A stretch of 60,000 nucleotides of DNA from the NCBI GenBank assembly GCA_949358305.1, contig OX442314.1:42418581-42478580 (forward strand). The letters are read 5' to 3'. The notes below the pieces were generated by a model. It was not told where the DNA came from. It searched no databases and saw only the letters and a list, made by a program, of their open reading frames with translations. Positions 19,979 to 45,712 of this stretch are shown here, one piece after another. The DNA is from Strigamia acuminata (lineage: Eukaryota; Arthropoda; Chilopoda; Geophilomorpha; Linotaeniidae). Both the position numbers and the translations under genes were made by a program. Position 1 is the stretch's first letter. Each line of letters opens with the position of its first letter.

Positions 19979-19980
19979 AT

Positions 19981-19990: not shown

Positions 19991-20186
19991 TATGGCAAAT
20001 AGCCGCAAAAATAAAGAATAAGTTAAGGGAAAAACTTTAAATGTAACTTTACATAGAATAATAATAATGGAAATAATAATTCGGAACATCGAGCCGGGTA
20101 CTGTTATATTAATCACTACGGAAGCCCGAAAATTCCCACTGGAACTCGATGATCCTCATAATTCGGGTAAAACTAAATTAAGAATG

Positions 20187-23100: not shown

Positions 23101-24992
23101 GATGCTCCCCACACGTCCATGTGTAGGAGATCTAAAGCCTTTGTAGAAATAGGATGTTCATCAGGTTTATGGGAAATGCGCGTTGATTTCGCAATTCGAC
23201 AATGATTACACGAAAGTTCCTTGTTCACTTCTGCCGGTGTCACTCCATAAACTTGGTTATTTCCGGCCAAAAGTTTCATAGCATTGGTGTGAAGATGACC
23301 CAATCTGCTGTGCCATATCCCAGTCGCATCCTTTTTAACCGTAGGCGCTGCAACTTTCTTTTGATTCGCCGACTTTAGATTCGGTTTGGAAGTTGGTGGA
23401 ATTGCCTTTAATGTGTCGGCAAAGGATGGGACTTGAGGTAATGGATTGGTAGGAACAGGTACAGGAGGTGTCTTGGACTGGGTTACTTTGATTGGTGCAG
23501 GTGGAGGAATTTCATTTGGCAAAGGAGGGAATTCGAGCCGAAAATCAGTAAAAAGTTCAGGATTTTTCGACTTTTTCTTTGCTCTTGGATACTGGATGAA
23601 ATCCTCTTCTGTCGTGACTAATGTTCGGGTCGGAGCGATTGACTGTGCAATAGGTACATCCACTGTTGACATCAGTGTTGAAGGTGGGCACAAGCCGTCA
23701 ACATAGTAAAGGCCGCCCTTTTCTTTGGCCCGAAGCATTGGATGCTTAATGTCGGATTTGTAGACATAGACGTCTCCATTCCAAATATGGATGTGATGTT
23801 TAGTTTTGTCCATTTTTGACACTGAAATCAAATTCGCCTCGAATTTTGGCGCATACAACACATCTTGGAGATTTACGACACATTCTACGTTGTTGATCAT
23901 GGAGATAATCTGGACTTTGCCCTTTCCTAGAACTTCGGAATGTCCTTGACCCAGCGCGATATTAAAAGGGACAACTTTAACAAAGTCCTGAAACCAAGCC
24001 TGGACGTGGCACACATGATCCGTTGCCCCACAATCCACTATCCATTCATGTGATTGCATGAAGTGAATTGTGGGCATTGGTTGAAGCGCACTGGCGAAAA
24101 AGTTCGTTTCCCGTCTTGCGCTGGAATTCCCCCTTGGTCTAGAATCATCTCGGTTTGAGTTCTTGTTGCGTTTGCGGCTTGAACTCCTCGGCTTCCTTTG
24201 GAGTGAAGCTGCCGGTTGATTCTTGTCATCTCGGCGCGATGGTAATGGACATTTATTTGCGTAATGGCCAAATTCCTGGCAATTAAAACACTGCACCGAA
24301 GATAACGGTCGAGAGGGACGAGAACGATTTCTCCCACGTTGCTGTTTTTCACCAGCATAGGCACGTGGAGGTTTAGAATTGTCTATGTCGCGCGAATCCA
24401 TAGCTTTGAGTCGCATATGTTCCGCGAGCAACTGTTCAGACACTTTCTTTGGTGTAAATTCTCCTTTGGGCAAGTGATATGTCGTGAATGAAATTTGTGA
24501 ATATTCACGAGGTAATAAGTCCAAGTATTGGTAAGCGTGATGATCAGGCGTAGTTATCTCTCCGATATCCTTCATTTGGCGGACATGATAGTCTACGCGT
24601 CCTAAGAAGTCGGCCATATCTTCGCCCTGCTCTAGGCACAAATTCAAAAATTCGCGGCGCATGGCTGCCTGTCGTGCGCGAGATGATGGCGCATAAATGT
24701 TGGCTAAAATGTCCCATGCTTCCTTCGGGGTTTTACAATCATCTAGCGCAGACTTCTTCGCCTCGCTTACAGAACAGTATATTAAGCCTAATGCCTTGGC
24801 TTTACGACGCTTGTATTTCTTCTTTTCCTTGTCACCCGCGGTTTTAAGGAATTCTGCCTCTTCTTCTTCAGTTACGTGTTCCCATAACTCTTCACTTCTC
24901 AGCACCATGCGCATTGAGCGCTGCCATAGTTCGTAGTTTCCTACGCTGAGAATCGGAAGGCGTCCGGAATTGGCTTCGACGGATTTTGACAT
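20187..24992 (-). CDS. Copia Gag-Pol polyprotein (1601 aa), intact
   Basis: Single uninterrupted frame from ATG at 24992. Domain order is that of Pseudoviridae/Copia. Gag occupies about residues 1-220 and a zinc knuckle Cys-x2-Cys-x4-His-x4-Cys lies near 234. The protease has Asp-Cys-Gly-Ala-Thr-Asp-His near 320, where Cys replaces the usual Ser/Thr. The integrase zinc-binding HHCC region spans about 560-600, and catalytic residues lie near 624 (Met-Asp-Val-Trp-Gly), 687 (Arg-Thr-Asp-Arg-Gly-Gly-Glu-Phe) and 722 (Gly-Thr-Ala-Glu-Arg). Reverse transcriptase has Tyr-Val-Asp-Asp near 1284. RNase H has Tyr-Thr-Asp-Ala-Ser-Trp near 1447 and a later Met-Glu-Ala-Glu. It makes the capsid, copies the RNA and inserts the DNA. 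With no separate gag stop, the Gag:Pol ratio must be set another way. Confidence 0.96.
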   Translation of the reverse strand: MSKSVEANSGRLPILSVGNYELWQRSMRMVLRSEELWEHVTEEEEAEFLKTAGDKEKKKYKRRKAKALGLIYCSVSEAKKSALDDCKTPKEAWDILANIYAPSSRARQAAMRREFLNLCLEQGEDMADFLGRVDYHVRQMKDIGEITTPDHHAYQYLDLLPREYSQISFTTYHLPKGEFTPKKVSEQLLAEHMRLKAMDSRDIDNSKPPRAYAGEKQQRGRNRSRPSRPLSSVQCFNCQEFGHYANKCPLPSRRDDKNQPAASLQRKPRSSSRKRNKNSNRDDSRPRGNSSARRETNFFASALQPMPTIHFMQSHEWIVDCGATDHVCHVQAWFQDFVKVVPFNIALGQGHSEVLGKGKVQIISMINNVECVVNLQDVLYAPKFEANLISVSKMDKTKHHIHIWNGDVYVYKSDIKHPMLRAKEKGGLYYVDGLCPPSTLMSTVDVPIAQSIAPTRTLVTTEEDFIQYPRAKKKSKNPELFTDFRLEFPPLPNEIPPPAPIKVTQSKTPPVPVPTNPLPQVPSFADTLKAIPPTSKPNLKSANQKKVAAPTVKKDATGIWHSRLGHLHTNAMKLLAGNNQVYGVTPAEVNKELSCNHCRIAKSTRISHKPDEHPISTKALDLLHMDVWGASRTTSYGGARYVLTIIDDATRYAWIFPMAQKSQVFGLFKDYVTRIERVTGKRVKAIRTDRGGEFLSNEFERYLKETGIQAQRTNPHSPAMNGTAERINRTMADYTRAILDETGLPNELWAEFAVTFSYIKNRCPHSRLKNEVPYILWRRRALSLRHLRKLGSKCWVHHTAPGRDKLDPRAWEGYLVGYATTTRGYRIWNPTDNKVIESIHVQIDERQSYKRSNHYRGPQQPWMGPDEDQSHQTSQTYQPLRISQPHVRFDDGLEYTDWPKFPDSEDECDTDYDSDDSTPADAQFRTPPATPTPGSPIRAPLITPVITPVPSPVITPGNTPSHTPPGSPPSFVNARRGSRGNAPQAHQAAHHGPPPTGAATAYKWRYIGGNTECRHWKREEHLRKVQEPGKLKVDVYYFPEAGLRLRSRGDVEEFCHMNNIPYDPELFYFGNMEYELENLPPPLPRVHLCRRDPTSYAEAVRFPDATKWQEAINEELDTFAERGVYEEVPKPENTTILGCKWLFKLKEDALGKPARYRARLVAQGFRQTLGVDYDEVFSPVVNFVLIRLFFCLLVVLKGWKDAHLDVKCAYLYGDLAHKVYMRIPAGATCSNPNHVWLLIKSLYGLHQSGRQWFEKLDQTLRDLGFRRLPGCNCVYIYGTSAVMLIYVDDIVLFYATDNVLTQLIALISTKFDVVNLGPITKLLGVEFIRTPKGIFIIQRAYIQKILKKFEIIADKLIKVPVTPGTTLVKGSKEDLPEFPYRSLIGSLLFLASRTRPDILFSVIMLSQFNNCYNHTHIKALMQVVRYVGNTLDYAIELSNCSNGQLWGYTDASWATEVSTSLSFGGYIAFIGNVPIGWSCRKQTSVACSTMEAEFVALVECVRELYWLDYVYSSVPMLNRSSPPLVFSDALSSIQFTSNDVENSKTKHIRVKFHWIREWYTAGAFQLRKVPGSMNVADIFTKWLGSSQLRLLISRIFNFNLS

Positions 24993-25826
24993 AATGACGT
25001 GGAGCTACGAAACAATCCGAAGCGAAGCACACAGGACGGAAAATGGTACAATTGATGAACTTGACGGTCTCGGAGCACAATATCGCGTTGCACAACACAA
25101 ATACGGCGCACTATTCGAAGCACTGTCAAAGCGGATATCAATCGAATTGGGCAACCACTTCTGAAGTGGTCAGATAACCCTAGCCAGCCAACACACAGGG
25201 GTCCGTTCGCCTACCTGGAGGCGCGGGAGTACCTGCTGGCCGCGGTAAGCACTGGCTAGGAATGAGTTTGTGCGGTGGTTCGACTGAACCGGAGGGCACA
25301 AACTATTCTAAGGGACCCACAAAAACTTAATACTATCTTAGATACTAACAAGCTAATTACGACTACTGAAAAGCAATTTTTAATTAGTATGATGAGACGT
25401 TGCGCCAATCTAGAGATGAAAATGGCGTAGTTGCGCATTTAAAATGCGAAAATCGTCGAAAAATCGTCGATACAACGACCGTACACGGTGTACTAAGTCG
25501 GGAATTAGTCCAAATCGTCGTTCACGCTGTGTAAAGCGGGTTTCCAACGTTGATTCTCGTTGGAAAATGGCGAAAATCTGAAAATAAATTGAAATTCGTC
25601 TCGAAAATTGCGAAACCCGCAGAAATCCGGACGAAATTAAATGAAAAATTGTAGAGCTGGTCGTGCAGACTACGTGAGAACGTCGGCGTGTCGTCTCGAA
25701 CGTTCTAGAGACGAAAATCGTCGCGGAAATCGGCGCAATCTGCAAATAGAAAATTTATCGCAAATTCGCGAATTTCGCGAAAATGGCGATAAAATTAGCG
25801 GTTTCGGCGTGCTGCAAGGATAGCAA

Positions 25827-25842
25827 CCACCCTCTGCTACCA
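25827..25842 (-). promoter_or_regulatory. Copia primer-binding site (initiator tRNA-Met)
   Basis: Two bases inside the 5' LTR the minus strand reads TGGTAGCAGAGGGTGG. This complements the 3' end of animal initiator tRNA-Met (…CUCUGCUACCA), the primer used by many Copia elements. Confidence 0.9.
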
Positions 25843-25844
25843 CT

Positions 25845-26314
25845 TGTAGCAGAGGAGTGCGCTCACAGTATAAAATACTGTGTGTGGAAGCGAGTTTAAA
25901 TGCCGAAACACGGCTAACATGAGCGCAATGACGTGCGCACACCTCCAGCGCTTGAAAATGGTTGAAAATGAAGTCACTGCACTCTAAAGTGCTCATATAT
26001 AGCAAACACAATGTAAAATAAACTAAATGTTTAATAAAAACAAAAATGCTTACATAATGTGGTCCATTTAGATGGAGAAAATACATGAGTGCTTGCTGGC
26101 ATGCAAGCGGCCATTGTGATTGTGAAAAACATACATGCACACCATCTGGTGTTGATAATAAGTAATACAAAAGTAAACAGTATAGAGGCAGCATTATGCC
26201 CAATGTTAAATAATGAAATAAATCCTAATAAATACACTAGGCTGCATAATGCAGTAATACATTAAGAAATATCCGTAATGAGTACGGAGGACTGTTTGGC
26301 ATTGATAAACAACA
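25845..26314 (-). repeat. Copia 5' LTR
   Basis: Partner of 19509-19978. A TATATA motif on the minus strand near 25990 is a candidate promoter. Fusion of the Gypsy gag frame into this LTR adds a short foreign tail before a stop at 26237. Confidence 0.95.
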
Positions 26315-27889
26315 GTTTCTTGGTCCCTTCGGGGGGACTTCTCCGCCATCCCGTGATTTCTTCGAGCCTCCGGAGGGCGGCGGCTCCTTTTCGTCGCTGC
26401 TCCCGTAAAAAGAATGCCATTTATTCTCTTCGCTTTCTGGGCGCTCGCGGTCCTTATTCGCGTTCTTTTTGTTGAGTAACGCGTCGATTGCGGCGCTTCT
26501 TTCGGATCGTTTCGAGGGGTTACGGTTTCTGGATTTTCTATCCGGTTGGTCGTCTTCCTGTGACTTCCTCTTTTTTGTTTCGGCGTTGGAGCCGCTGGTG
26601 GGCTCTTTGTCCGTTTTCGGATCCTCCTTTTTATTCTTCTCCGAAACGTCCGGCTCGTACTCTCTTTGGAATTTCTCTGTTTCCTTTTCCCAATTTTCGG
26701 CTTCCCATCGTTTCTGCTCGTCAATTATTGCTTTTTTCTTAGCTTGGTACTCGTCGGTCCATCTGTACCTCTCCCATTCTTCTTGTTCTTCACGAAATTG
26801 CTCCTTTTCTCTCCTTGCTCTTGCGGCTTTCATCCTTTCGTGGTATTGCTCTTCCCACTTCTGGTGTTGCTGCTGAGCTTCTTCTCTCAGTTTCTGCAAT
26901 TTCTCGGCTTTTCGTTGGGCCAGGAGGGCTCGGAATTGTTCTTCGTAGTCTTGGGCTTCTCTGTGCCTTCCTTCTACTGTATTATTCCATTCTCTTCGTA
27001 TTTTTGCTTCCTGCTCTTCCCTTATCCTCTGTACCATTTCTTCCGTTTCCTCCGTGGTCCTTTTTTCACGCTGCAGTCGTTCCTCTTCCTCGTTCCAAAG
27101 TTCTCTCCTCTCAGCGCTTACTCTACGCTGACGATTTATCGTTTCCTGCCTCGATTCTTCTCGGGCTTTCTCCCGAGATTCGTGAAGGGCTTTGTGAGGA
27201 TCGGGCACGAAGTTACCTACGTCACTCGGCGTTTCTTGCGATACAGGCGTCTCCGCCGCTGGTCTTGCGACTGGCGTCGGGGCCTGTGCTGCACAAATTG
27301 CTTTTGTGAGTATAGTAATCGAGTCCCAGACTGACGTTCCCGGCGGAATATCGGTTACTGCCTTCAGTCGGGCTGCTTGTTGCGATAGATGAATTAAATG
27401 GGCGACTTCGGGGGAAACAGGGGCAGGTCTCGCCGAGGCGCTGGAGGCCATCGGGGTCCTACTCGTATTTCTCGCCGGAGTTTCGTTCAGGGGGGCAGAT
27501 TGGTGACTTTTTGCCGGTGATGGGCTGCTGTCGATTGTAGTCGTCCGCCTCGGAGTTTCTATTTTCTCCTTGGCTACTAGTATCGGCACTCGTCCTGTTG
27601 TTGTATCGCGAATTTCTTCTTGATTTTCTAGGACTTCCGTATCGGTATCTTCGACAAAGGGCATATCTGAGGAGAGCGGCTCTCGCTCGGGCTCGGTTAG
27701 GGCCTCGAGCGAAGCAGCTGCTTCCTCTTTCTGCGCCTTTGCTTTCCTCCGATTCGCTCGGGCTTTCGCCTTCGCGGATTGTTCGGGAACCGGGCCGCCC
27801 GACCTTAGGTTATAGTCGGAGGTCCGTTTTCCCTTTTCGAGCGTAGGTCGCTCGTTATCAGACGCGGATTGTTCATCTTGGTCTGACAT
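26315..27889 (-). CDS. gag: Gypsy Gag, 5' half (nested element)
   Basis: The ATG at 27889 follows a short leader after the primer-binding site. The first 525 residues are highly charged, with a Pro/Thr/Ser-rich stretch at about 110-230 and long Glu/Arg/Gln/Lys-rich, probably coiled-coil, segments at about 240-480. The Copia element interrupts at 26315. The portion 26383-27146 recurs at 1-764. Large N-terminal coiled-coil extensions also occur in the plus-strand relative's Gag, so this is a shared family trait. Confidence 0.88.
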
Positions 27890-27964
27890 TTCTTTGAGTA
27901 ATTCTTCGATTTGGGTTATTATATTAAATGAGAGATCACAAGTTCAGTTGAGATTTATTTCTAA

Positions 27965-27982
27965 ATCCCGGACGGGCCCCCA
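27965..27982 (-). promoter_or_regulatory. Gypsy primer-binding site (tRNA-Pro-like)
   Basis: The minus strand reads TGGGGGCCCGTCCGGGAT two bases inside the LTR. It differs by one base from the well-known tRNA-Pro primer-binding site of gammaretroviruses. The plus-strand Gypsy has a near-identical site. Confidence 0.8.
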
Positions 27983-27984
27983 CG

Positions 27985-28803
27985 TGTCGCGTCCTACCTG
28001 GTGATAGGTTTAATGAGCTAACGTGTATTACTTTACCTGTGATCCTACTAAATATGTAAATTACCCAAATGAATACTAAGTATATTTAAATGAACAAATA
28101 GGTTTATTCAATAGGCGTAAGCCTTAAAATACACTCAGTATAAAACTAGAGTCGACTTGGTCAGAGTCGAACAAAGGATTTCCCAAGATGGCGTCGTCGG
28201 TTCCGCGTGGTCGGCGGAACAAAGGCGGCGTCTCGAGTTGTCGTTAATTCGTCACGGATTCGTCGTTCACGGACGCGGTGGAATGCTCTTTCGAGTCTTC
28301 TATCCGTGCCTGTTGTCTAGGGGTTGGTTTTAGCGTCGCAAGGCTCCGTCCAGAAACGAGGAGTTTCTTACAGGGCACTCGGACACTTTGGTGGCGGAAT
28401 AACCGTGGGTCGGTTATTCGGTGTGAATTCACAAGGGTTATTTTCCTGCTTTCGCGGGAAATAAACGCACAGTGTAAATTCGTGAGAGTTACAGTTGCAC
28501 TGGAATCAGCGGTCCTCGATCAATCCTAACTTGTACTTGAAGTTGGCCTGACGGTGAGGTAGTTGCTGTGTTCTTGGTGTCGTTTGTGTAAGTTCTGCTT
28601 GTAGGGCGCGAAACTCTACCTGATATAGGCCAGGGTGAGGGGCCTGGCTCGGCCAATGGGGGCCGGCCACGCGTCACCTCACCCCCTCGGGGCACGCGCT
28701 TCCCAGGGGGGGAAGGCGGAGCCAACGCGAGGGAACTGACCTTTCCTAGTGACTCATGCGGATGGCGTCCACTGGAGGGACGACCACCCGCGGGGTCACC
28801 ACA
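27985..28803 (-). repeat. Gypsy (nested) 5' LTR
   Basis: Partner of 12294-13112. Right flank TGTT (28804-28807) is the target duplication. TG and CA ends are intact. Confidence 0.95.
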
Positions 28804-33923: not shown

Positions 33924-34554
33924 TGTGGTGATTCGGCATCACCTGAAGAAGTAATTAGCGGTGATTATTGTGTTACTAATACTCGCCACTAGAGCGCGCT
34001 AGAAATACCGACTAGACTGACTAGTCTCGTGTTTCTGCGAACCTGCATAATCGGAAGGATTTGCATATGACGTCATTTCCGGTTAGTATATAACGCCGAT
34101 ACTTGACCGGAAACGACACTACAGTTACCACATTTCAGCAAGAGCACCATTTACCTCACCTTTCAGGCCGTTTCACGGATTGATCGAGGACCGGTGCCCG
34201 CTGACCATCTCAACTGTACAACAGCCACATTTATTTAGCGTAGCCAATCTACGCTAGAATAAATATTCGAACGATATTCGTTTAATTCGCACGAGAAAGC
34301 GAATTCTCGCGTGTTCATAATAACACGTGGAAATACCCTAGACAACAAACATAGACCACGCGTAGGACTAAACAATTGGATCCGCCATTGTTTAGCGGCA
34401 ACTCGTATTCGCAGCCGAATCCGAGGACCAACACAGGAAACATCTTGACTTATATTTGTATTAGTAAGCGTGTTTTAATAAAGCAGTATTTGAAATATAT
34501 TGTATTCCCGAGTGTATTATTTATTATCTTTAACCACAAAGTCGAATCACGACA
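33924..34554 (+). repeat. Gypsy 5' LTR with promoter
   Basis: The paired copy is at an offset of 11158. TATATAA at 34087-34093 is a candidate TATA box, and AATAAA at 34258-34263 a candidate polyadenylation signal (used from the 3' copy at 45416-45421). This places a plausible R region between about 34120 and 34285. Confidence 0.93.
34087..34093 (+). promoter_or_regulatory. TATA box of the Gypsy LTR
   Basis: TATATAA within the 5' LTR, about 170 bp upstream of the AATAAA signal. The position fits an LTR promoter at the U3/R boundary. No experimental start site is known. Confidence 0.55.
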
Positions 34555-34556: not shown

Positions 34557-34574
34557 TGGGGGCCTGTCCGGGAT
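34557..34574 (+). promoter_or_regulatory. Gypsy primer-binding site (tRNA-Pro-like)
   Basis: TGGGGGCCTGTCCGGGAT lies two bases after the LTR end. It is close to the classic tRNA-Pro primer site and to the site of the nested Gypsy element. Confidence 0.8.
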
Positions 34575-34639: not shown

Positions 34640-34645
34640 GTAAGA
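34640..34645 (+). promoter_or_regulatory. Candidate splice donor just upstream of gag
   Basis: GTAAGA sits 7 bases before the gag ATG. A retrovirus-like leader donor here could join to sequence upstream of ORF3 exon 1 and so bypass gag-pol. No equivalent was found in the nested relative, so this is only a suggestion. Confidence 0.3.
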
Positions 34646-34646: not shown

Positions 34647-37493
34647 ATGACAAAAACTACCGCAGAAGATAGAAAAAGGCGTAACGACGAAAAGGATAGA
34701 AAAGAAGCCGAAGAAATCGAACGCCAAAAAGCGGAAGAAGCGAACCACGTGGAACCAGAAGTCGAGACTAACTCGACTAAAGTTTCAACGGAATCATCAA
34801 GTGAAAGCCTTCCCCTTGCAAGACAACTTCCGTTTACGGGAGGCGAATTCGAAGGATCAGGAAGCTCTCACGAAGAAAACGGACTAAATAAATCGTTCGA
34901 AAACCCTCGATTCGGATTGAAAAGCCCAAGACCTGTCGAAAAGGATCCCAGTGAAATGGATCTAATGACTCTTCTAAATAAAGCGGCAAACACAAGTGCC
35001 GCAATGATCAACGAGGCTGCCCGCGCAGACCAAGCAAGAACAGTCGCGTTAGAGAAGAAGAAAAACGAATTGATGGAAGATTTAGCCAGAGAGCATCGCG
35101 AGAAATTAGCTGCCATGGAACAGAGCTTGGCACAAGAACACCAAGCTAAACAAATGGCACTGGAGCGCGAGCTGGCTCGAGAATTGCTCGCGAAGCAGAA
35201 AATAATCGAACGAGAAATGGCAAAGGACTGCCAGATCCGGCCGCCAAGCAACGGGTTAAGCCAGCATTCGGAGCCAAACTCCGTACAGAGCTCCCCAGAA
35301 CGGTCTCACACAGCTAAGGAGCTGGTAGCCAAAGCAATAGAAGTAACTCGGGTAGCTTGCGCACACGGCATCGAGATCGACCAGGACAAGGATCCCTACG
35401 CAGAGCTAAGCCGAGTAATCGACCTAGTAAATCAGAGGACTGAAAAACGATCGGCAGATAACACGGCCAGACGCGGAGAGAAACGACGTCGGGTCGGAGC
35501 AGATCGACAACAGTCCGAGACAGGCGGCGAAGCAACGTCAGACAGCGAAAGTATCGACTCTCAAGCATCTCACGGCAGTATCCGAGTCAACGGACTAGAT
35601 AGCATCTTGAACGAATCGGACGAAGTCAAAGGAGAACTGTACGAGGCGTTTATACAAGATAGGAGGAATAATCAGGGCGCGCAATCATGGGCAATAAAAA
35701 ACTCATTCGCAATGAAAACTGGCCAAACCAGTAATAACAACCCAGGCGACCCTAACGCAGAACTAATCAGATGTATAAATCAGAAGAATCAAATACGCAA
35801 CGAAGTAGGTCAAAATAAACTGGCCATGCCGACGCTCGAGGAGATTAACGCAGTTAAAAATCACCTCGAAAAGAAACACGCCGCCGAAGCGTATGCTGGG
35901 AGAGATTCCTACGTTTTTATCAAAAAAACGAACGAAGGCCTCACGGGGACCCGACTGGACGATCTGATACCGCCCGGAACAAAGTTGAGCCAAACCTCCG
36001 CTCCAGAGAAAGCGAACCCAGATAACTCAACCATAGCGCAAGACCTCACGAATAACCCGAACACCGCGGGATCATCAGGGAAAACGTCGTTCCAACACAA
36101 TCAGTTCGGACTGACGGGCAACGGTACGCATTACCCAAGCCTCCCTTCCGACAATCCACGATCATCACCGCTGCTTAGTGAGACTGACTCGCTAAGCAAC
36201 CAACTACGGACGATGAGAGACGAACTCCTTCAGGCCATGGACCAAAAGCTTCAACAAAGCCGTGGCCAAGAGACCGAGGAGGACGATCGAAGCGAAGGAT
36301 TGTTGAAACGTTACTCCGCAGACCGATGGCTGTATTCTCGCAAGGATAACAACATCAAGTGGACGACCCTGAGACTAATTAAGTTCGACGGATCCTGGAA
36401 CGCCGGCAACTTGTTTTTGGACGAAGTCGCCCTGACGATTAATCGCTTAGGAGCGGAACCCGACGAAATGGTTGCACGCGGAATACCAGAAATGCTGATC
36501 AACCGGGCCCGAAACTGGTACGCTGATGTCCAACCCCGAAACTGGGAAGATTTCGTCATAAAGTTCCACAATCAATATGGCGAGACGAGCCAAGAAATCC
36601 AGAAAAGAGTAAGCTCTATGAAGCAAGCTCCCGGGGAAACTCTGAGGGAATACGTACAACGAGCCGACAGCCTGTTCCGTGAAATGGACAAACCATTTGA
36701 CCAACACGCTCAGAAAGCTCTCTTCGAACAAGGACTAAACGAAACCGCAACCAAAGTCCTACGAGAAATGAACGCTCCTAAGGGGGATAATTTCAAAGCC
36801 ATCCTAGCTTTCGTCGAGAAGAAACACACCGAAGTAAATGCTCGGTATAACGAAAATCTGACAAAAGAAGAGCGAGCTCTAGGAGTGGCCCGACAGCAAC
36901 GAATACAGGAGCGCAGCATAGACTCCACTAAGCTGCTCCAATCGCGAAATTATCTAAACGGAAGTATAGAGCCACTCCCCTCAAAGAAAAACCAACAAGC
37001 TTCTAACCCTTTACCACCTCCGAGTAAGGCCTATCGCACGCAAACTAACGCCGCCGAGGAAAAGTCGGAAGACGAAGTAAGCGAAGACTCTGAGCAATTC
37101 TCGGAAAGCGATGAGGCTGACGAAGGTATCAACGATGTGGTACACGCAAACATGGGGAAGGAACTGGCGCCCAGCTACCGACCTCAGATGAAGTCCAGAA
37201 AATCGGAACACCACAACCCGAAAACAGAGGCGACTTCCGAGAAGAAGGACTACCCCAAAAAACCTTTTGAGCGGGAGGGAAAGAAGAAAAGCCCTTGTAA
37301 TTTCTGTAACGAAGACGGCCACTGGCGTCAGGCCTGCCCAAAACTGGCAAAGAAAAAAGCCGACGACAAGGCCGCAGAGCGTGAGGAGCTAGTGAAATTG
37401 CTCGCGAAGGAACAAGACAAAATCTTGAAGGAACTCACCGCCAAACTCGACAGTATGACAAAAAACTGGAACTCGCGGGCGGAACAAAAGTGA
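34647..37493 (+). CDS. gag: Gypsy Gag (948 aa)
   Basis: ATG at 34647. The first 250 residues are dominated by Glu/Lys/Arg/Ala heptads and are probably coiled coil. A basic patch with Arg-Arg-Gly-Glu-Lys-Arg-Arg-Arg lies near 275. The retrotransposon-gag capsid domain spans about 570-720 (Phe-Asp-Gly-Ser-Trp-Asn-Ala-Gly, Ala-Arg-Asn-Trp-Tyr, Gln-Ala-Pro-Gly-Glu-Thr-Leu). A Ser/Glu-rich linker leads to a zinc knuckle Cys-x2-Cys-x4-His-x4-Cys near 883-896. The usual Gypsy Gag is about 300-500 residues, so the N-terminal extension is unusual; the nested relative shares it. The stop is at 37491-37493, 25 bases after the slippery heptamer. The protein packages the RNA and builds the particle. Confidence 0.95.
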   Translation: MTKTTAEDRKRRNDEKDRKEAEEIERQKAEEANHVEPEVETNSTKVSTESSSESLPLARQLPFTGGEFEGSGSSHEENGLNKSFENPRFGLKSPRPVEKDPSEMDLMTLLNKAANTSAAMINEAARADQARTVALEKKKNELMEDLAREHREKLAAMEQSLAQEHQAKQMALERELARELLAKQKIIEREMAKDCQIRPPSNGLSQHSEPNSVQSSPERSHTAKELVAKAIEVTRVACAHGIEIDQDKDPYAELSRVIDLVNQRTEKRSADNTARRGEKRRRVGADRQQSETGGEATSDSESIDSQASHGSIRVNGLDSILNESDEVKGELYEAFIQDRRNNQGAQSWAIKNSFAMKTGQTSNNNPGDPNAELIRCINQKNQIRNEVGQNKLAMPTLEEINAVKNHLEKKHAAEAYAGRDSYVFIKKTNEGLTGTRLDDLIPPGTKLSQTSAPEKANPDNSTIAQDLTNNPNTAGSSGKTSFQHNQFGLTGNGTHYPSLPSDNPRSSPLLSETDSLSNQLRTMRDELLQAMDQKLQQSRGQETEEDDRSEGLLKRYSADRWLYSRKDNNIKWTTLRLIKFDGSWNAGNLFLDEVALTINRLGAEPDEMVARGIPEMLINRARNWYADVQPRNWEDFVIKFHNQYGETSQEIQKRVSSMKQAPGETLREYVQRADSLFREMDKPFDQHAQKALFEQGLNETATKVLREMNAPKGDNFKAILAFVEKKHTEVNARYNENLTKEERALGVARQQRIQERSIDSTKLLQSRNYLNGSIEPLPSKKNQQASNPLPPPSKAYRTQTNAAEEKSEDEVSEDSEQFSESDEADEGINDVVHANMGKELAPSYRPQMKSRKSEHHNPKTEATSEKKDYPKKPFEREGKKKSPCNFCNEDGHWRQACPKLAKKKADDKAAEREELVKLLAKEQDKILKELTAKLDSMTKNWNSRAEQK

Positions 37494-37510
37494 TTCCACA
37501 TCCGCTCGCG
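37460..37510 (+). promoter_or_regulatory. Programmed -1 ribosomal frameshift signal
   Basis: The slippery heptamer A-AAA-AAC (37460-37466) lies in the gag frame. After a 7-nt spacer comes a 10-bp stem: CGCGGGCGGA (37474-37483) pairs with TCCGCTCGCG (37501-37510), with one G-U. The loop is 17 nt and holds the gag stop codon. Slipping -1 enters the pol frame directly. This is the canonical geometry for retroviral Gag-Pol frameshifting. Confidence 0.9.
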
Positions 37511-40500
37511 ATAACTTCGAAAACGATGGACCTTACTCTGGTGGAAAAACAAATTAAAGAAATGGAAAAATTGTTGGAATTCTTCGAGGAAGCTGCCAAC
37601 GAGGAAGTCACAACTCCAACCAAAAAACGGAAATTCGAAATTAGAGACGAAGACGGTATAGCCAACGCTTTCATGACTTTGCCGCTTGACCAAGGGGCCA
37701 ATCCTCTTAAAAAGCGAATACTTCGTTGCAACCTATCAACAGAAGCGAAGAGCGTACTGGCTAAAATACCAGTCTCTTTCGGCAAAAAGGTGTTAATGGG
37801 ACTACTCGACTCGGGAGCGGATCAGTCGTTTATCTCCACCGACTTATTCGAATCACTCGAAGAAAAAATACAGAAAAAATTACGGGGAATGAACGAGAAC
37901 ATTCGAGTTCTTACAGCAGCGGGAGAAGTTAGAGCAGTGGGGACGTTATCAACCGATTTTGTATGGGAAGGAGGCACGATTAAGCATTTCTTCATCGTGT
38001 TACCAACCCGAGACACAATCCTGCTGATAGGAATGGATTTGATGGAACGGATGAACATCCAGCCCAACCCAGTCACACGTTCGTGGAATTACATCGACAA
38101 CCACGAGGACCCACGACTACCCATAATACCTCCGGAACTCCTAGACAAAGCTAAGGACGACGAGGAATGGGGAGGAGGCGAAATTAAGAAGTTCATCCAA
38201 GACTATAATTTTAAGTCGTTTAATACTATCCTCCAAGAGGAGAATTTAATACATAATCTGGCCATGGACGCCAATCTTGGAGAAGAACAAACGAAACTCC
38301 TCGAGGAAATGCTCAAGAAGCACTCGAAGAACTTAAATAAAGATCCAGGAAAGACTAGTTACGTAATGCACGAGATCGAATTGGTTACGGGAAAACCGGT
38401 GCGAGTACCTTTTAAAACTATGAATCCCCAAAAGAGACATATCGTAAGAACGATGTGCAACGAGTTGCTCGAAAAAGGGATCGTGTCGCACGCCATCGGA
38501 GAATATGGAATGAGGATTGTCCTCGTCATGCGACCAGGCTCCGAACCGCGCCTCTGCATCGATTATAGACCTTTAAACGCCATAACCGTCATCGACCCCA
38601 TCCAAATGCCGTCAATAGAAGCGATTCTACGGGAGCTCGCCCCATTTAACTGGGTCACGACCATGGACTTGTCCAAGGGTTACTGGCAGGTTGAATTGCG
38701 GGAAGAGGATAAAGAGAAAACAGCTTTTTGGGCACCACAGGGTCGACTGATGTTTAATGTAATGCCCTTCGGGTTAGTAAACGCACCCGCCACCTTTCAA
38801 AAACTAATAGAAAAAGTTCTCGGCGATGCCTTACACAAATACGCATGGGCTTACCTCGATGATATAGTCATAGTCTCCCAAACTTTTGAAGACCACCTGA
38901 TACACGTGAATGACGTCATGGAGCGACTCACAAAAGCCGGTCTAAACATTCATCCAGGGAAAAGTAAATTTTGCCGCAAAGAATTGGCATTCCTGGGTTA
39001 CACAGTCGGAACAGGTGGCCTATCCATCGACCCGAAAAAGACCCAGGCGATTAGCCAGTTCCCCGCCCCGGAAGATGTAAAAGGAGTCCAACGTTTCATG
39101 GGCATGGTGAATTTCTTCAATCGATTGCTCCCAAATTTGGCAGACGTCGCGGCACCCATCACAGATCTGTTACGCAACGATAAAGATTTCGAGTGGACTG
39201 ACCACTGCGAAACATCGTTTAACAAGATAAAACAAATGCTGATCGATGTAAAACGAATTCCCCTACCAGATCTTAATCGAGAATTCACTCTTCACACCGA
39301 CGCCAGTCGAATTGGCCTAGGTGCTGCGTTGCTTCAAAAGCATGACATCGACGGAGTAGTGTTAGAGGTCCCGACGATGTTCATCAGCCGGAAATTACAA
39401 GCAGCCGAAAAGAATTATAATGCGACAGAGTTAGAATGTCTAGCCGTCGTCTGGGCAATCCGAAAATTCAGACCATACCTGGAATTTACCAAGTTCAACG
39501 TACAAACTGACCACGAAGCACTAAAGTGGTTAATGGCGTTGAAGGAACCGTCCGGAAGAATGGCTCGCTGGCAGCTAGAATTAATGGCTTGTGACTTAAT
39601 CATTGAATACCGACCCGGAAAATTCAACGTCGTGGCAGACGCCCTCTCACGAGCCCCAGCTTCAGACCCCGAAGACGAGACCGACTGCGGAGAGGACGAC
39701 TCACGCCTCTTCTACTGTCCGAACCCCGTCCGAAAATGGGAATTTAAAAAGCTAAACGAATTACCCAAGGAGAAACTCGAGTCAGGAGACCAAAATTATT
39801 ACAATTATTGGCTCCGAGCATACCAGTCTGTCAAGGACGCTCACCCAAATTACGAGCTAACGATAGAACCTCGAATCTCCGACAAGTACGTTCGAGCATT
39901 CGTCGCCCACGTAAGCAAGGGGACGAATAGTAAGCCGCCCACCAGGGACGAATTAATAGCCGCCCAGATGACAGACGACTTCTGTAAAACTTATCGAAAC
40001 TTCATCACAGATAAAAAATTTCCCGACGAGAATTTCGACGAAATCCAACGCGAAGAATTCGAAAGAGAAGCCTCCACGTACTTAATCGAGGATGGACTTC
40101 TACTAAAACACCACCCGAATTTCCGCGATGATCTGACGGAGACGGGAACTTCGATGAAAGTCGTTATACCCAGGAGTCTGCTGACAAGGTTTCTGTGGAT
40201 GGTCCACGGACACCCGCTCGCCGGACATTCTGGAGTGGCCAGAACGATCTACCGAGCAAATCAACTTTATTTCTGGCCAAAAATGACCCGAGATATCGTT
40301 CGTTTTATTCATCACTGCCCCAGATGCCAAGCGTGCAAGCCGAGGACGCCCAAGAGCTACGAGAGAATCTCACTTGGCCCTTTCGCACCCTTCGATTGCT
40401 GGAGCGTGGATTTAATGGGCCCAAAGCCCACGTCATCCAATAAAAACAAATATATATTAGTAATCATGGATGTCGCGACTGGATGGCCCGAACTCTTTCC

Positions 40501-41572
40501 AATGGAGAGACCAACTAAGCAAAAAATCATTCGATGTTTGTACGAAGTGGCGCTTCATTTTGGATTCCCTCGAAAATTAATCTCCGATAATGGACCACAA
40601 TTCGCGTCAAATTTGTACAAAGACTTCTGTAAAAAATTCGACATCGAGACATCATATACATCAACCTATAATCCACGGGCCAATCCCGTCGAAAGGTTAA
40701 ATCGCGATATAAAATATGCACTAGCAATTTTCACCGATGTTCACTCCAGCTGGGACGAATATCTTCGTGAAATTGCCTTCAGCATCCGCACAACGATCTC
40801 AAGGAACCGCAAATTTTCTCCCGCGTTTCTAAACTTCGCTCGGGAACTCAGAGTACCCTGGGACCCACGAATACCGGAGGAAATACTGGAAATTGATCCT
40901 GAGAAGCCTCATATTTATGTCGACAGACTGGAGCAAATAATTTCGGCCACTTATCAGCACATGATGTCACACATATTCGACATGAGAGATCGTATTAGCA
41001 TTGCTGGAAAGGATCGGCCCTTCTGCAATTTTAAAGTCAATGACCTCGTCTGGAAAGACACACATATTCAGTCCAGCGCCGATAAGGGGGTCCACGCAGG
41101 CTTAGCAGACAAACGCGACGGCCCGTACGTCATACTCGAAGCCCACGGCGGAAACGCTTTCAAGCTAAAAAGATTGGCAGACAACGTTAATTTTAGATCG
41201 ATCCACGCCCGAGAATTAACTCCATACTTACCTGAGTTTCCTCAAGAGGCTTGGACGGAATATCAGACGAAACCAGCGCAAAATCCAATTATTCGCGACA
41301 TGTTTTTAGATGAACAAACTGGCCCAACCAATTTAGTTCAAGATGAGTCACACGAAGCGGCCGACGCCCCGGATGAGATTTCGGAGAGGGAGGAAATAGT
41401 CGAAGAATCTCCTAAAAAAGGAAAGCAATCAAACAAAAATAAGACTACAAGAATCCTCAAACCTGATAAAATATACGGTATGCGTCGACACAAGCCAAAC
41501 CCGTTCATAAAAGACGGGAAACTCGTCGGAAAACAAAAAGCGACTCCGGCCATTGTCTCAAACAATCGATAA
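37466..41572 (+). CDS. pol: Gypsy Pol: protease, reverse transcriptase, RNase H, integrase
   Basis: This is the -1 frame entered at the heptamer; the open stretch without an obvious ATG near its start supports expression only as a Gag-Pol fusion. Residue numbers below count from 37490. Protease Leu-Leu-Asp-Ser-Gly-Ala-Asp lies near 106. Reverse transcriptase has Tyr-Leu-Asp-Asp near 454, and RNase H has Thr-Asp-Ala-Ser near 603. The integrase zinc finger His-x-His...Cys-x2-Cys spans about 906-947, catalytic Asp residues lie near 973 and 1032 (Ser-Asp-Asn-Gly), and Glu near 1067 (Pro-Val-Glu-Arg-Leu-Asn). A GPY/F module lies near 1210 (Gly-Pro-Tyr). The tail is acidic then basic, without a chromodomain. 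Length and order are normal for Gypsy and every catalytic motif is present. Confidence 0.96.
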   Translation: MELAGGTKVIPHPLAITSKTMDLTLVEKQIKEMEKLLEFFEEAANEEVTTPTKKRKFEIRDEDGIANAFMTLPLDQGANPLKKRILRCNLSTEAKSVLAKIPVSFGKKVLMGLLDSGADQSFISTDLFESLEEKIQKKLRGMNENIRVLTAAGEVRAVGTLSTDFVWEGGTIKHFFIVLPTRDTILLIGMDLMERMNIQPNPVTRSWNYIDNHEDPRLPIIPPELLDKAKDDEEWGGGEIKKFIQDYNFKSFNTILQEENLIHNLAMDANLGEEQTKLLEEMLKKHSKNLNKDPGKTSYVMHEIELVTGKPVRVPFKTMNPQKRHIVRTMCNELLEKGIVSHAIGEYGMRIVLVMRPGSEPRLCIDYRPLNAITVIDPIQMPSIEAILRELAPFNWVTTMDLSKGYWQVELREEDKEKTAFWAPQGRLMFNVMPFGLVNAPATFQKLIEKVLGDALHKYAWAYLDDIVIVSQTFEDHLIHVNDVMERLTKAGLNIHPGKSKFCRKELAFLGYTVGTGGLSIDPKKTQAISQFPAPEDVKGVQRFMGMVNFFNRLLPNLADVAAPITDLLRNDKDFEWTDHCETSFNKIKQMLIDVKRIPLPDLNREFTLHTDASRIGLGAALLQKHDIDGVVLEVPTMFISRKLQAAEKNYNATELECLAVVWAIRKFRPYLEFTKFNVQTDHEALKWLMALKEPSGRMARWQLELMACDLIIEYRPGKFNVVADALSRAPASDPEDETDCGEDDSRLFYCPNPVRKWEFKKLNELPKEKLESGDQNYYNYWLRAYQSVKDAHPNYELTIEPRISDKYVRAFVAHVSKGTNSKPPTRDELIAAQMTDDFCKTYRNFITDKKFPDENFDEIQREEFEREASTYLIEDGLLLKHHPNFRDDLTETGTSMKVVIPRSLLTRFLWMVHGHPLAGHSGVARTIYRANQLYFWPKMTRDIVRFIHHCPRCQACKPRTPKSYERISLGPFAPFDCWSVDLMGPKPTSSNKNKYILVIMDVATGWPELFPMERPTKQKIIRCLYEVALHFGFPRKLISDNGPQFASNLYKDFCKKFDIETSYTSTYNPRANPVERLNRDIKYALAIFTDVHSSWDEYLREIAFSIRTTISRNRKFSPAFLNFARELRVPWDPRIPEEILEIDPEKPHIYVDRLEQIISATYQHMMSHIFDMRDRISIAGKDRPFCNFKVNDLVWKDTHIQSSADKGVHAGLADKRDGPYVILEAHGGNAFKLKRLADNVNFRSIHARELTPYLPEFPQEAWTEYQTKPAQNPIIRDMFLDEQTGPTNLVQDESHEAADAPDEISEREEIVEESPKKGKQSNKNKTTRILKPDKIYGMRRHKPNPFIKDGKLVGKQKATPAIVSNNR

Positions 41573-41757: not shown

Positions 41758-41910
41758 ATGAAAAGAAATGATTGGAAGAAAGAAATTGAACGGGCCGTAA
41801 ACAACGCTTCCGAGGATGACGATGAAGATCAAGTGGATTTGTTACAAATCATTGTAAACAACGAAGAGGGAAATTGGGACGAACCCAATGAACCCGATGT
41901 CCAACCCGAC
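41758..41910 (+). CDS. ORF3 exon 1 (51 codons)
   Basis: Begins with ATG at 41758 and ends in GAC directly before a consensus donor GTAAGT. The product is basic for the first ten residues, then strongly acidic, and carries Asn-Trp-Asp-Glu-Pro ten residues before the donor. Without splicing, translation would run into an oligo-Lys from the A18 tract and stop at a TAG. The nested Gypsy has a matching 40-codon acidic exon with Asp-Trp-Asp-Glu-Pro at the same relative place. Confidence 0.72.
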
Positions 41911-42191
41911 GTAAGTAAAAAAAAAAAAAAAAAATAGAAAAAATTCAAGTATCGATAATCAAAAATACGAAATAAGTTCGTGGACTGACCACAAACGAAA
42001 AAATAATTTAACTTTAAGTGACAAATTATCAAAATTAATCAAATACCGAAAGAAAAATTAACTTCAAAACACGTGGTCGAAAAGCACATGGCCGACCATG
42101 ACGCCATCTTGTGTTAGACGAAAGAATCTCTACAAAAATATGACAAATTAATCAACGATCCTAATATATTTATTAATATTCTAATATTTAG
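41911..42191 (+). other. Predicted intron in ORF3
   Basis: 281 bp with donor GTAAGT and acceptor TATTTAG. A CTAAT branch-point-like sequence lies close to the acceptor. Exons on both sides are in phase 0. An A18 tract follows the donor. Confidence 0.7.
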
Positions 42192-44882
42192 GACGGATAT
42201 CGCACTACGTGGGGGCAAATCGACCCGAAAAGAGTTTCCGCAGGCAGCTTATGGCGCGAAGTAATCCCCATACTGTTCCGACAAGCGCTCGAAGAAGCGG
42301 TCGACTTTGAACCATGGAAAATTCGCCTTTTATTGTCCCGTGCGATCAGCCGCTACTGGTCCAGCCAGCAAACGTTGATCCACTACATGCCGCGCCAATA
42401 TCAAGCAGCTTTACGGGCAGTTATCTCGAGAAATATGGACCCGCCAGCGCCAATCCCGAATCCACTAATCCGAGCCGCCTTTCCTGACGACCAGCGAGGA
42501 TGGGACGTTTACGAACAATGGCGCGACGCCGAAACAGATGAAGAAAAACACCAGATCCATATGGCATATTACGAAGAAGTAAGGCGGACCGCACATGACG
42601 AGGTTTTCAATTATCTACAGCCGGACGGTTACTCGACCGAGGAAATCAGGTTTTGGCTCCTTCAGATCCGCGAAGACCGGCCCGACCGCCCAGATTGGAG
42701 ACCGAGACACGGTTTCATCACCTCGCAACGAGCAATGCATCAATTGCATTTTTTGGGCTTCTTTGGTCGCAAACGCCAGAAAGCCGAGAAACGTCTCTCC
42801 AACGAGCACGACGAAGCAGGCTGCTCAGCGAAGAAACAATGCCTGGACAAGCCAAGCACTTCCAGCAGCGCGCAGAATAAGAAACCCGCGACAGAGAAAC
42901 GCCTGGCCAAACCAAGCGCTCTCTCTCGCCTGGGAAAGACGGAGGCCCCACAAACATCGCGATTTCAATCCAGGGACGCCCCGTCAACCAGCCGAAGAAG
43001 AGAAAATGTGCGCGAACGCCCCGACCGTCGAGAGGATCAACGCAGACGCGATAGGAACCAAGAAAATTGGGACGATTATCGTAGAAATTACTTCCGACGG
43101 CGGGAAGAAAACAAGGAATCCTGGAATAGACATCGAGAGGAGTTCCTACGCGAACGTGATGAGAAAGCCCGACGTGAACGAGAGAACCTCCGGTTACAGG
43201 ACGAACGAAGAAGGAGAGGATCGGAGAGTCGCGCACGTTCATGGAAAGCGTATCGCGAAGAGGAATTACGACAGCGAGATAGGAGACGCTGTGAAGTCAT
43301 CAAATCGATTTGGGACAGTCCCGAACCGATGAAGATTGACGACGAAGTGATTATCGACGAGGTCCCCGAGCAGAAGAAGATGTATACTCAGGCGGATCTC
43401 CTCGCGGTGGTTATGAAATACCAACAAATGCAGCCGAAACCAGTCTACCGCCCGACTCCCTCGACCGCCTCGAGTCTAGAGACGGCGCCAAGTGCTTTCA
43501 TCAAGCCGGAACTCTCACAGACGAGAAGCGTAACATCCAGCGTCAGCCTCCCAAGCGCCTTTCGCAAGAAAGTGATAATCGGCGCACCGACACTGAGTTC
43601 TGAAGAACAACTCAGACATCGAGAAGCTCGCTTTGGACCGACCAAAGTCGAACCTCTCCCAACTATCCCCGAAGCCTCAACTTCAACGAGAACTCCAATC
43701 GTTTGGGACAAGCCCGAACCGGAAAAATCAAGACGTCTGGTCAGATCTGTGCCTCAGCCAACGACATCCACGGGACCCAATCCGATGTTGCCAGCCCCAG
43801 CAGTCATCCAAGCCTCGACTCCAATCAACCCTTCGGAGGTAACGTTGCAACAGTTTCTGGAGGTAACGACCGTGGAGCAAGCTAGAGCGCTTTTGTGCGA
43901 GATGGACTCCTACCAACAAAACGTGATCCAAAACGTCATCACGAACCTTCAGCGGATCTCAATTGAATATACGCAGAACAAAAATCGGGATCATCCAAAT
44001 TGGAATACGAGGATCGTGGTTGCCATTACCGACTTGATGTCGATTTTGCTGGCCGCCGCCACCTTCCGAAACGCACGTGTTGCTGTAGCAGCCTGGATCG
44101 TGGTGGCCCACGAGGGTTTCCAAGTTCCGCCGGCTCTCGTAGACAGCTGGACACGTCTGGTGCCCTCTGCGGCAGTAATTCGAGCCCAAATGGTGGCCCA
44201 GGACCCGGATCCAGAGGCCTCCTACCAGAACGTTCGAGCGATAATTCAACGCTCGCTCCCGTCACCTTCGGCGGCCACGCCAACCGCAGAGACTCCGGTT
44301 CCCAGGGATCCGACGCCTCCTCCTCCGCCTCCGCCGAGGGAGAAGGGACCCTCCGAGCCACTGGCCGAACCAGTCCCGCTCAAGAAGAAGGAACCCAAGA
44401 AAAAGATGCTCCTCCCAAAGTCGAGCAAGAAGGTTCCAAAGACGACAGAGCCTCAAATCGCCGCCAGACTCAGGATGTACTTCCCAGGGTTGTCCTTTAC
44501 GAAGGACACGGAGGCAAAACTACTCCAGTCTCCAGATCGTGGCTATTCTCTTTACGTCTGGATGAAGGACGCTATCGAAGCCGGAGCCGGAGGCGAGCGC
44601 TTCATCCAACATCAACGACTACTCCGAGCCCATCGCGCACCAACCAGCATCGCCGAGGCCCAAAGAATCCACCACACCAATCAAGGTATGTCGGCCTTCC
44701 TGCCACCAATTTGGGCCCACGAACGAACGGGAAATCCGCTGGAAGCGCCGGGACACCTACGTTTCTACTTGAATGAGAGCGAAGACCCCTCGGACTACTC
44801 TTCAAGACTGACCACATCTCCCAACCTGGACGAACCAAGTTCGGAAGATAAGCCGAGTTATGCCGATAACTTGAAGAAATAA
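42192..44882 (+). CDS. ORF3 exon 2: accessory protein of unknown function
   Basis: Open for 896 codons from the acceptor; with exon 1 the protein would be about 947 residues. Similarity to the nested Gypsy ORF3 starts near the exon border, upstream of the first in-exon start codon, which argues for entry by splicing. Exon-2 layout: a conserved N-terminal block (about 1-195), an Arg/Glu-rich, probably helical segment (about 225-370), a linker with Ser/Thr/Pro, a second conserved helical block (about 545-650), a Pro-rich/Lys-rich segment (about 665-740), and a conserved C-terminal domain with Trp-Ala-His-Glu-Arg, Pro-Gly-His and Asn-Glu-Ser-Glu-Asp-Pro. There is no signal peptide, furin-like site or membrane span, so it is not an Env. 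No known domain was recognised. Confidence 0.8.
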   Translation, partial: DGYRTTWGQIDPKRVSAGSLWREVIPILFRQALEEAVDFEPWKIRLLLSRAISRYWSSQQTLIHYMPRQYQAALRAVISRNMDPPAPIPNPLIRAAFPDDQRGWDVYEQWRDAETDEEKHQIHMAYYEEVRRTAHDEVFNYLQPDGYSTEEIRFWLLQIREDRPDRPDWRPRHGFITSQRAMHQLHFLGFFGRKRQKAEKRLSNEHDEAGCSAKKQCLDKPSTSSSAQNKKPATEKRLAKPSALSRLGKTEAPQTSRFQSRDAPSTSRRRENVRERPDRREDQRRRDRNQENWDDYRRNYFRRREENKESWNRHREEFLRERDEKARRERENLRLQDERRRRGSESRARSWKAYREEELRQRDRRRCEVIKSIWDSPEPMKIDDEVIIDEVPEQKKMYTQADLLAVVMKYQQMQPKPVYRPTPSTASSLETAPSAFIKPELSQTRSVTSSVSLPSAFRKKVIIGAPTLSSEEQLRHREARFGPTKVEPLPTIPEASTSTRTPIVWDKPEPEKSRRLVRSVPQPTTSTGPNPMLPAPAVIQASTPINPSEVTLQQFLEVTTVEQARALLCEMDSYQQNVIQNVITNLQRISIEYTQNKNRDHPNWNTRIVVAITDLMSILLAAATFRNARVAVAAWIVVAHEGFQVPPALVDSWTRLVPSAAVIRAQMVAQDPDPEASYQNVRAIIQRSLPSPSAATPTAETPVPRDPTPPPPPPPREKGPSEPLAEPVPLKKKEPKKKMLLPKSSKKVPKTTEPQIAARLRMYFPGLSFTKDTEAKLLQSPDRGYSLYVWMKDAIEAGAGGERFIQHQRLLRAHRAPTSIAEAQRIHHTNQGMSAFLPPIWAHERTGNPLEAPGHLRFYLNESEDPSDYSSRLTTSPNLDEPSSEDKPSYADNLKK

Positions 44883-45081
44883 GTAATTAGAAATCGTGAC
44901 GAGAAGACTGTCTTCTCCAAACTAGGAAATTATTATTATTTGTTTGCGTATCAATTATTTAAGAATGTAAAATATTTTATGCACCATTCATCATCATTTA
45001 AATAAAAAGATTATTTTATGATTAGATATTGTTCCTCCTTTTATTTAAGGGACCCCGATGATTTATTCTCGGGGAGGGACG
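44883..45081 (+). other. 3' untranslated part of the Gypsy element with polypurine tract
   Basis: AT-rich, non-coding. It ends in the purine run GGGGAGGGACG (45071-45081) directly before the 3' LTR, the likely polypurine tract. Confidence 0.75.
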
Positions 45082-45712
45082 TGTGGTGATTCGGCATCAC
45101 CTGAAGAAGTAATTAGCGGTGATTATTGTGTTACTAATACTCGCCACTAGAGCGCGCTAGAAATACCGACTAGACTGACTAGTCTCGTGTTTCTGCGAAC
45201 CTGCATAATCGGAAGGATTTGCATATGACGTCATTTCCGGTTAGTATATAACGCCGATACTTGACCGGAAACGACACTACAGTTACCACATTTCAGCAAG
45301 AGCACCATTTACCTCACCTTTCAGGCCGTTTCACGGATTGATCGAGGACCGGTGCCCGCTGACCATCTCAACTGTACAACAGCCACATTTATTTAGCGTA
45401 GCCAATCTACGCTAGAATAAATATTCGAACGATATTCGTTTAATTCGCACGAGAAAGCGAATTCTCGCGTGTTCATAATAACACGTGGAAATACCCTAGA
45501 CAACAAACATAGACCACGCGTAGGACTAAACAATTGGATCCGCCATTGTTTAGCGGCAACTCGTATTCGCAGCCGAATCCGAGGACCAACACAGGAAACA
45601 TCTTGACTTATATTTGTATTAGTAAGCGTGTTTTAATAAAGCAGTATTTGAAATATATTGTATTCCCGAGTGTATTATTTATTATCTTTAACCACAAAGT
45701 CGAATCACGACA
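45082..45712 (+). repeat. Gypsy 3' LTR
   Basis: Partner of 33924-34554, no difference noticed. AATAAA at 45416-45421 is the likely polyadenylation signal. Confidence 0.95.

Follow-up and report, generated by a model that had tools for sequence, protein, structure and literature searches.

What is encoded by the long open reading frame (ORF) that takes the place of env in a Ty3/Gypsy retrotransposon of Strigamia acuminata (Chilopoda, Geophilomorpha), how is it expressed, and what might it do for the element? The element lies in a stretch of 60,000 nucleotides (nt) of contig OX442314.1 (positions 42,418,581 to 42,478,580 of the forward strand), referred to here as the window, which is a nest of long terminal repeat (LTR) retrotransposons. 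This Gypsy element, g1 (33924-45712, plus strand), consists of an LTR pair, gag, pol and then the frame in question, ORF3, and a second Gypsy element, g2 (12294..28803, minus strand), contains a diverged copy of the gene. ORF3 is a genuine third gene in a Ty3/Gypsy lineage, located in the env position and shared by the two elements. Its spliced product would comprise about 947 residues, in which charged or proline-rich linkers connect three conserved blocks. The role preferred here, to which we assign a probability of roughly 0.4, is that ORF3 controls how the genomic RNA is spliced, exported or otherwise handled; it is proposed by analogy with CERV of the Caenorhabditis elegans element Cer1 and with lentiviral Rev.

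The first exon of ORF3 in g1 (41758..41910, plus strand) starts 185 nt past the stop codon of pol and has a frame of its own. Counted from its ATG it comprises 51 codons, and the encoded peptide is acidic (17 D/E, 5 K/R) and ends with ...NWDEPNEPDVQPD. The predicted intron (41911..42191) has a length of 281 nt, the donor GTAAGT and the acceptor TATTTAG; it contains stops in all three frames and includes GACGCCATCTTG at 42100. Exon 2 (42192..44882) consists of 896 codons (42192-44879) plus the stop, and both exon borders are in phase 0. A first-pass annotation of the same DNA had given these coordinates together with the donor, the 281-bp gap, the acceptor and the matching phase, and all of them were exact. 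The GC content was 26.7% in the intron, and 42.5% and 54.4% in the exons flanking it. At the base composition of exon 2, the chance of 896 codons without a stop is about 5e-16.

The ORF3 blocks of g1 and g2 were each compared singly using composition-adjusted BLASTP. The N-terminal block (42207..42764, plus strand, residues 6-191 of exon 2) was 34% identical over 186 amino acids (E 1e-28). The middle block (43869..44252, plus strand), in which the only hydrophobic stretch of g1 ORF3 is located, showed 27% identity over 128 amino acids (E 2e-15), and the C-terminal block (44454..44810, plus strand), with the pattern HQRLxRAHR ... IWxHER ... PGHxxFxxNESExP, 34% over 119 amino acids (E 2e-19). 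Across most of exon 2 taken together the identity was 23%; by comparison, g1 and g2 share 42% identity in the protease part and 27% in the C-terminal part of gag. ORF3 is thus conserved about as well as gag, which speaks for a function in the life cycle of the element, and it is almost certainly a conserved coding gene. The intact 896-codon frame, the identical LTRs of g1 and the gag-like conservation across two diverged elements make it very improbable that ORF3 is a decayed envelope gene or a captured host gene without present function for the element, an explanation that is suggested by its position and that no database relative contradicts.

The architecture of ORF3 in g2 is the same, as the first-pass annotation had also claimed: the acidic exon with Trp-Asp-Glu-Pro, the donor GTAACA, the acceptor CTTCAG and phase 0 were all found. 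Exon 1 (16814..16933, minus strand) has 40 codons, of which 14 encode D/E and 4 K/R, and ends with ...DWDEPEQQPQ. The predicted intron (16271..16813, minus strand; GTAACA...CTTCAG) has a GC content of 39.8%. The first part of exon 2 (14843..16270, minus strand) runs up to an in-frame TAG (14845-14843). The part after this TAG (13571..14842, minus strand) contains the middle block and is then disturbed by a frame-shifting tandem duplication, downstream of which the C-terminal block (13152..13691, minus strand) is found in another frame. ORF3 of g2 is thus broken by the stop codon and by the duplication.

In both second exons the homology sets in at residue 6, at an equal distance from the splice border, while the first methionine of exon 2 is residue 66 in g1 and residue 25 in g2, so that the similarity does precede any start codon within the exon, as had been noted before. 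The exon 1 peptides share Trp-Asp-Glu-Pro near the donor. In 5000 shuffled pairs their local alignment score of 50 was equalled or beaten 24 times, and among 17 candidate mini-exon pairs of the same phase this pair was the joint best, the tie being with an alternative GT at 41899.

ORF3 is probably spliced as described, with the 51-codon exon joined to the 896-codon exon. For g1 this is well supported by a frame that opens at the acceptor, by homology from residue 6 and by a first ATG only at codon 66. The same phase in both elements, the similar ends of the exon 1 peptides and a sharp GC step at both acceptors lend it further support. In bins of 30 nt the GC content of g1 rises at the acceptor from 6.7 to 56.7%, and that of g2 from 20.0 to 60.0%. 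The AT-rich part comprises about the last 60 nt of each intron, and the two bins before it have 56.7 and 43.3% GC in g1, and 60 and 50% in g2. The sequence AATATATTTA begins 28 nt (g1) and 18 nt (g2) before the last base of the intron.

Without splicing, the long frame would be translated alone, beginning at the border or close to it, and exon 1 would be a separate short frame or a leader. The start would have to be a non-AUG codon in g1, where the TAG of the acceptor itself closes the exon 2 frame immediately upstream and no ATG occurs ahead of codon 66, although homology is already evident 60 residues earlier. In g2 the start would be an in-frame ATG directly before the acceptor, in a frame that is open back to 16390. 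The likeness of the exon 1 peptides is contrary to an unspliced ORF3, and this alternative has only a small probability. Some points nevertheless count against splicing. In g2 the donor, GTAACA, is a weak one; 18 nt past it there is a donor-like GTAAGA (16795), the use of which would bring in a stop, and the in-frame ATG is located just six nt 5' of the acceptor. The evidence for splicing in both elements consists of sequence signatures.

The origin of the message was considered as well. Between the LTRs of g1 (34555-45081) there are three GTAAGW sites, at 34640, 38444 and 41911, the last of which is the ORF3 donor. The first, a donor-like GTAAGA (34640..34645, plus strand), is located 7 nt 5' of the gag ATG, where one would expect the leader donor of a subgenomic RNA, and could possibly serve as such. 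No GTAAGW donor was present in the leader of g2. The 12-mer CAAGATGGCGTC, which we take to resemble a YY1 site, occurs at four places in the 60 kb, both strands considered: at 12493 and 28184 in the LTRs of g2, and at 16597 and 42100 in the two ORF3 introns, the g2 intron carrying it in reversed orientation. Its core AAGATGGCG was additionally found in both LTRs of a BEL/Pao element (7644, 29979) and once at 3512.

Expression of ORF3 as a separate unit from an internal promoter, with the YY1-like site in its first intron, instead of from the LTR, would be compatible with the RNA-control role preferred here; it is considered less likely than not. The 12-mer is confined within the window to the g2 LTRs and both ORF3 introns, its core recurs in the BEL LTRs, and the missing leader donor of g2 would also favour such a promoter. 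However, the motif was picked after looking at the sequence, and when the introns were shuffled, 111 of 1000 pairs had a word of 12 nt or more in common, which in 9 cases contained at least 5 G/C. The opposite orientations in the two introns, the copy of the core at 3512 outside the LTRs and introns of these elements, and the leader GTAAGA that g1 does carry also speak against it. The 12-mer in the introns is therefore regarded as a lead for an internal promoter and not as evidence of one.

The protein was then compared with known families. No Pfam family matched the whole of g1 exon 2 at E 1, and no piece of ORF3 reached a Pfam cut-off, in agreement with the first-pass annotation, whose author had recognised no domain. 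Weak Pfam matches below the cut-off were set aside; these were TetR_C_41 in the middle block of g1 (E 0.064), and Tail_P2_I (E 0.011), MerR-DNA-bind (E 0.014) and REV (PF00424, E 0.068) in g2. The same was done with non-significant Protein Data Bank sequence matches in the proline-rich region (E 0.17, 0.29 and 2.8). Exon 2 of g1 had no match in PHROGs. A protein search for relatives of exon 2 scored 7993 candidates and yielded none at E 0.001, and a search with residues 1-200 of exon 2 yielded none among 485 candidates; the collections searched hold few animal genomes, and the contig and phage sets exclude them by design, so that misses there say little. In viral contigs, 3 pattern matches were obtained with exon 2, 68 with the N-terminal alignment, 44 with the C-terminal alignment and 11 with pol, none of which was confirmed. 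None of 47 pattern matches in bacterial and archaeal genome contigs was confirmed either, and the phage records gave no match. AlphaFold models of the N-terminal and middle blocks, built from alignments of 2 and 3 rows, were mostly helical, at low mean predicted local distance difference test values of 58.5 and 49.0.

A role in controlling the genomic RNA was put first because this RNA would retain the ORF3 intron and would thus meet the same export problem as that of Cer1. According to this proposal, the short acidic exon behind pol would be joined to the long exon in a spliced RNA, from which ORF3 protein would be made early, the message being fully spliced. The protein would then act on unspliced genomic RNA still carrying the ORF3 intron, and as a result this RNA would leave the nucleus, or would otherwise be protected, packaged or translated. 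The lack of a signal peptide was counted in favour of this role. An arginine-rich mixed-charge stretch of g1 (residues 269-368; 42996..43295, plus strand) contains 35 R, 3 K and 27 D/E. It includes the furin-like motifs RRRR and RDRR at 339 and 362 of exon 2. The stretch was counted for a nuclear RNA role because arginine-rich mixed-charge domains promote localisation to nuclear speckles (PMC12629991). As g2 is without it, it may be taken as a hint only.

Several further findings weigh against this role. The arginine-rich stretch is unmatched in g2, the best 100-residue window of which has 40 charged residues and falls in the N-terminal block. Residues 606-626 of g1 exon 2 reach a 19-residue hydropathy of 1.84, enough for a membrane helix, for which 1.6 is the customary threshold. 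None of the six ORF3 pieces scanned contained the leucine-rich export pattern that is quoted for Cer1, and Foldseek searches of the Protein Data Bank with the block models yielded nothing at E 0.001 or better, and hence no fold that would support RNA binding. Moreover, arginine-rich domains in excess hold some mRNAs in speckles, and such retention is not export (PMC12629991).

The hydrophobic stretch also bears on a different function. A spliced accessory protein could instead be a particle component, or replace env in cell-to-cell transfer or as an antagonist of host defence. The env position fits this, and so do, by analogy, Drosophila elements of the MDG1 group, which spread without env by means of a small accessory protein (PMC11952523). 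The predicted helical blocks would likewise be compatible with a capsid-like or scaffold protein. The value of 1.84 in g1 would suit such a function, but the stretch is not kept in g2, where the piece with the matching middle block reaches at most 0.92; a signal peptide is missing, N-glycosylation motifs number one in exon 2 of g1, and the MDG1-group protein in question, sORF2, is a small membrane protein encoded 5' of gag, unlike ORF3. RNA control is ranked only slightly above this structural or transmission role, which is itself a tentative possibility. Both exon 1 peptides are hydrophilic, with best 19-residue hydropathies of -0.66 (g1) and -0.53 (g2), so that ORF3 is without an N-terminal signal peptide. 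With 1.84 at one place in g1 and at most 0.92 in g2, a membrane anchor is unlikely, and ORF3 is probably not an envelope, as neither a signal peptide nor a recognisable env domain is present. The earlier claim that the protein has no envelope features held for the signal peptide and for Pfam env families, but not for the hydrophobic stretch of g1. Exon 2 of g1 also contains the single N-glycosylation motif, the two furin-like motifs, both within the arginine-rich stretch, and 4 cysteines.

The element carrying the intact gene is a Ty3/Gypsy LTR retrotransposon in every respect considered: the LTRs, target duplication, primer binding site, polypurine tract, gag and order of pol domains all fit. 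The 5' LTR (33924..34554, plus strand) has TG...CA ends and, like the 3' LTR (45082..45712, plus strand), a length of 631 bp; the two are 100% identical. A 4-bp target duplication, AGTT, flanks g1 at 33920-33923 and 45713-45716. The primer binding site TGGGGGCCTGTCCGGGAT (34557..34574, plus strand), presumably of the tRNA-Pro type, starts 2 nt after the LTR, and the polypurine tract GGGGAGGGACG (45071..45081, plus strand), which is common to g2, precedes the 3' LTR. The gag frame (34647..37493, plus strand) has a Retrotrans_gag domain and a zinc knuckle below the cut-off. The pol frame (37385..41572, plus strand), which is -1 relative to gag, encodes a protease-like part, reverse transcriptase (RT), RNase H and integrase, the integrase following RNase H as is the order in Ty3/Gypsy elements. 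Judging by its three long frames, all of them open, g1 is a young copy and looks intact. In a protein search with g1 pol, 1358 of 7984 scored candidates reached E 1e-30, and the best 120 of these 1358 were all at most 41% identical.

Element g2 has LTRs of 819 bp that are 100% identical, and its pol is cut down to the protease part. It is interrupted by a nested Copia element (19509-26319). The gag and protease part of g2 are kept; tblastn with g1 pol matched residues 82-271 only and did not detect RT, RNase H or integrase. With identical LTRs, with gag, protease and ORF3 exons, and without the remaining pol domains, g2 is perhaps a recently mobilised non-autonomous derivative. Positions 1-764 of the window reproduce perfectly a 764-bp segment from the gag region of g2 (26383-27146), and this segment adjoins sequence that resembles pol of a further Gypsy element. 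Both g1 and g2 have GGATTGATCGAGGACCG in their LTRs (34177-34193; 28526-28510) and, elsewhere in them, CCCTAGACAACA.

Some other features of the window were noted besides ORF3. The Copia pol ORF (20187-25004, minus strand) contains a methyl-CpG-binding domain (MBD) at 21735-22007 (Pfam E 6.4e-5; score 22.9 bits, cut-off 21). The domain is placed between integrase/SH3 and RT, its best match among solved structures was MBD2 (E 0.012), and it might direct the element to methylated DNA. A literature search on such a domain in a Copia polyprotein revealed nothing recognisable. An ORF at 32481-33158 (minus strand) has a weak match, below the cut-off, to a herpesvirus tegument N-terminal family (E 0.0015). 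At 53848-54129 there is an array of units of about 10 bp around GATAAAAATCG, with an inverted arm. Scans of the window with Rfam, at the gathering threshold, and for tRNAs gave no match.

How does ORF3 compare with known systems? In Cer1, CERV is made from a spliced mRNA with its main ORF in the env position (PMC10309623, PMC3315495), and the protein is nuclear, is found on the genomic RNA and is required for RNA export and hence for GAG expression (PMC10309623). ORF3 and CERV have in common that a Gypsy element carries, between pol and the 3' LTR, a large ORF in which no env domain is recognised. In CERV this ORF is joined to an upstream coding exon by splicing, as is predicted for ORF3. CERV is described there as having no obvious homology outside nematodes, and ORF3 was without relatives in the collections searched, which hold few animal genomes. 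The tRNA-Pro site of Cer1 begins with TGGGGGCC (PMC3315495), as does the primer binding site of g1, but the later bases differ.

There are also differences. CERV has five exons, the first three in the gag frame, whereas the one other exon of ORF3 is located downstream of pol and is not derived from gag. By sequence, ORF3 is without N-terminal exons shared with gag, although it may have further exons upstream. The ORF in the env position forms the C-terminal half of CERV, while exon 2 contributes 896 of the 947 residues of ORF3, and CERV is smaller, with 517 amino acids compared to about 947. In Cer1 gag and pol are not separated by a stop, while pol of g1 is in the -1 frame. As ORF3 has neither exons in the gag frame nor a stop-free gag-pol, it was not classed as CERV, although it would work like CERV if it controls the genomic RNA as proposed; the two were compared by architecture. 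That ORF3 founds a new protein family representing a CERV/Rev-type switch in a second, differently built Gypsy lineage, with the promoter-like element of the intron tying transcription to that switch, is an unlikely reading.

Rev of human immunodeficiency virus type 1 (HIV-1) and other lentiviruses offers a similar parallel, being made from a spliced accessory message and acting on unspliced genomic RNA, as the ORF3 protein would (PMC10309623, PMC3315495). ORF3 shows no Rev-like domain, the PF00424 match of g2 mentioned above being below the cut-off, and no export signal was matched. Rev is also far smaller than ORF3. The env gene of errantiviruses is likewise located behind pol and expressed by splicing. 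ORF3 differs from it in having neither a signal peptide nor a conserved transmembrane segment. In LTR elements of bdelloid rotifers, a third ORF behind pol often has non-envelope content, namely GDSL esterases and DEDDy exonucleases besides env-like or other membrane proteins (PMC5408684); a profile search found no such Pfam domain in ORF3. The sORF1 and sORF2 of the Drosophila MDG1 group resemble ORF3 as accessory ORFs of Gypsy elements without env, but are located 5' of gag, encode about 110 and 70 amino acids and have transcripts without evidence of splicing, sORF2 being a membrane protein (PMC11952523).

The first-pass annotation had called ORF3 an undescribed accessory protein expressed by splicing. 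This fits the sequence, with splicing as a deduction, and a literature search, which subscription papers mostly lay outside, retrieved no recognisable description of the protein or of an animal Gypsy ORF3 with a private first exon. The kind of gene, however, is known: CERV of Cer1 occupies the same position, and a spliced accessory gene in the env position is not new as a general idea (PMC10309623). Genes in this position of LTR retrotransposons are often unexplained, as was said there of plant elements (PMC10309623). A two-exon gene that is conserved between diverged elements, of which g1 is intact and recent, provides a testable case. If the proposed role of ORF3 is true, the control of unspliced RNA by a spliced protein would occur in more than one Gypsy lineage and would not be peculiar to Caenorhabditis or to complex retroviruses.

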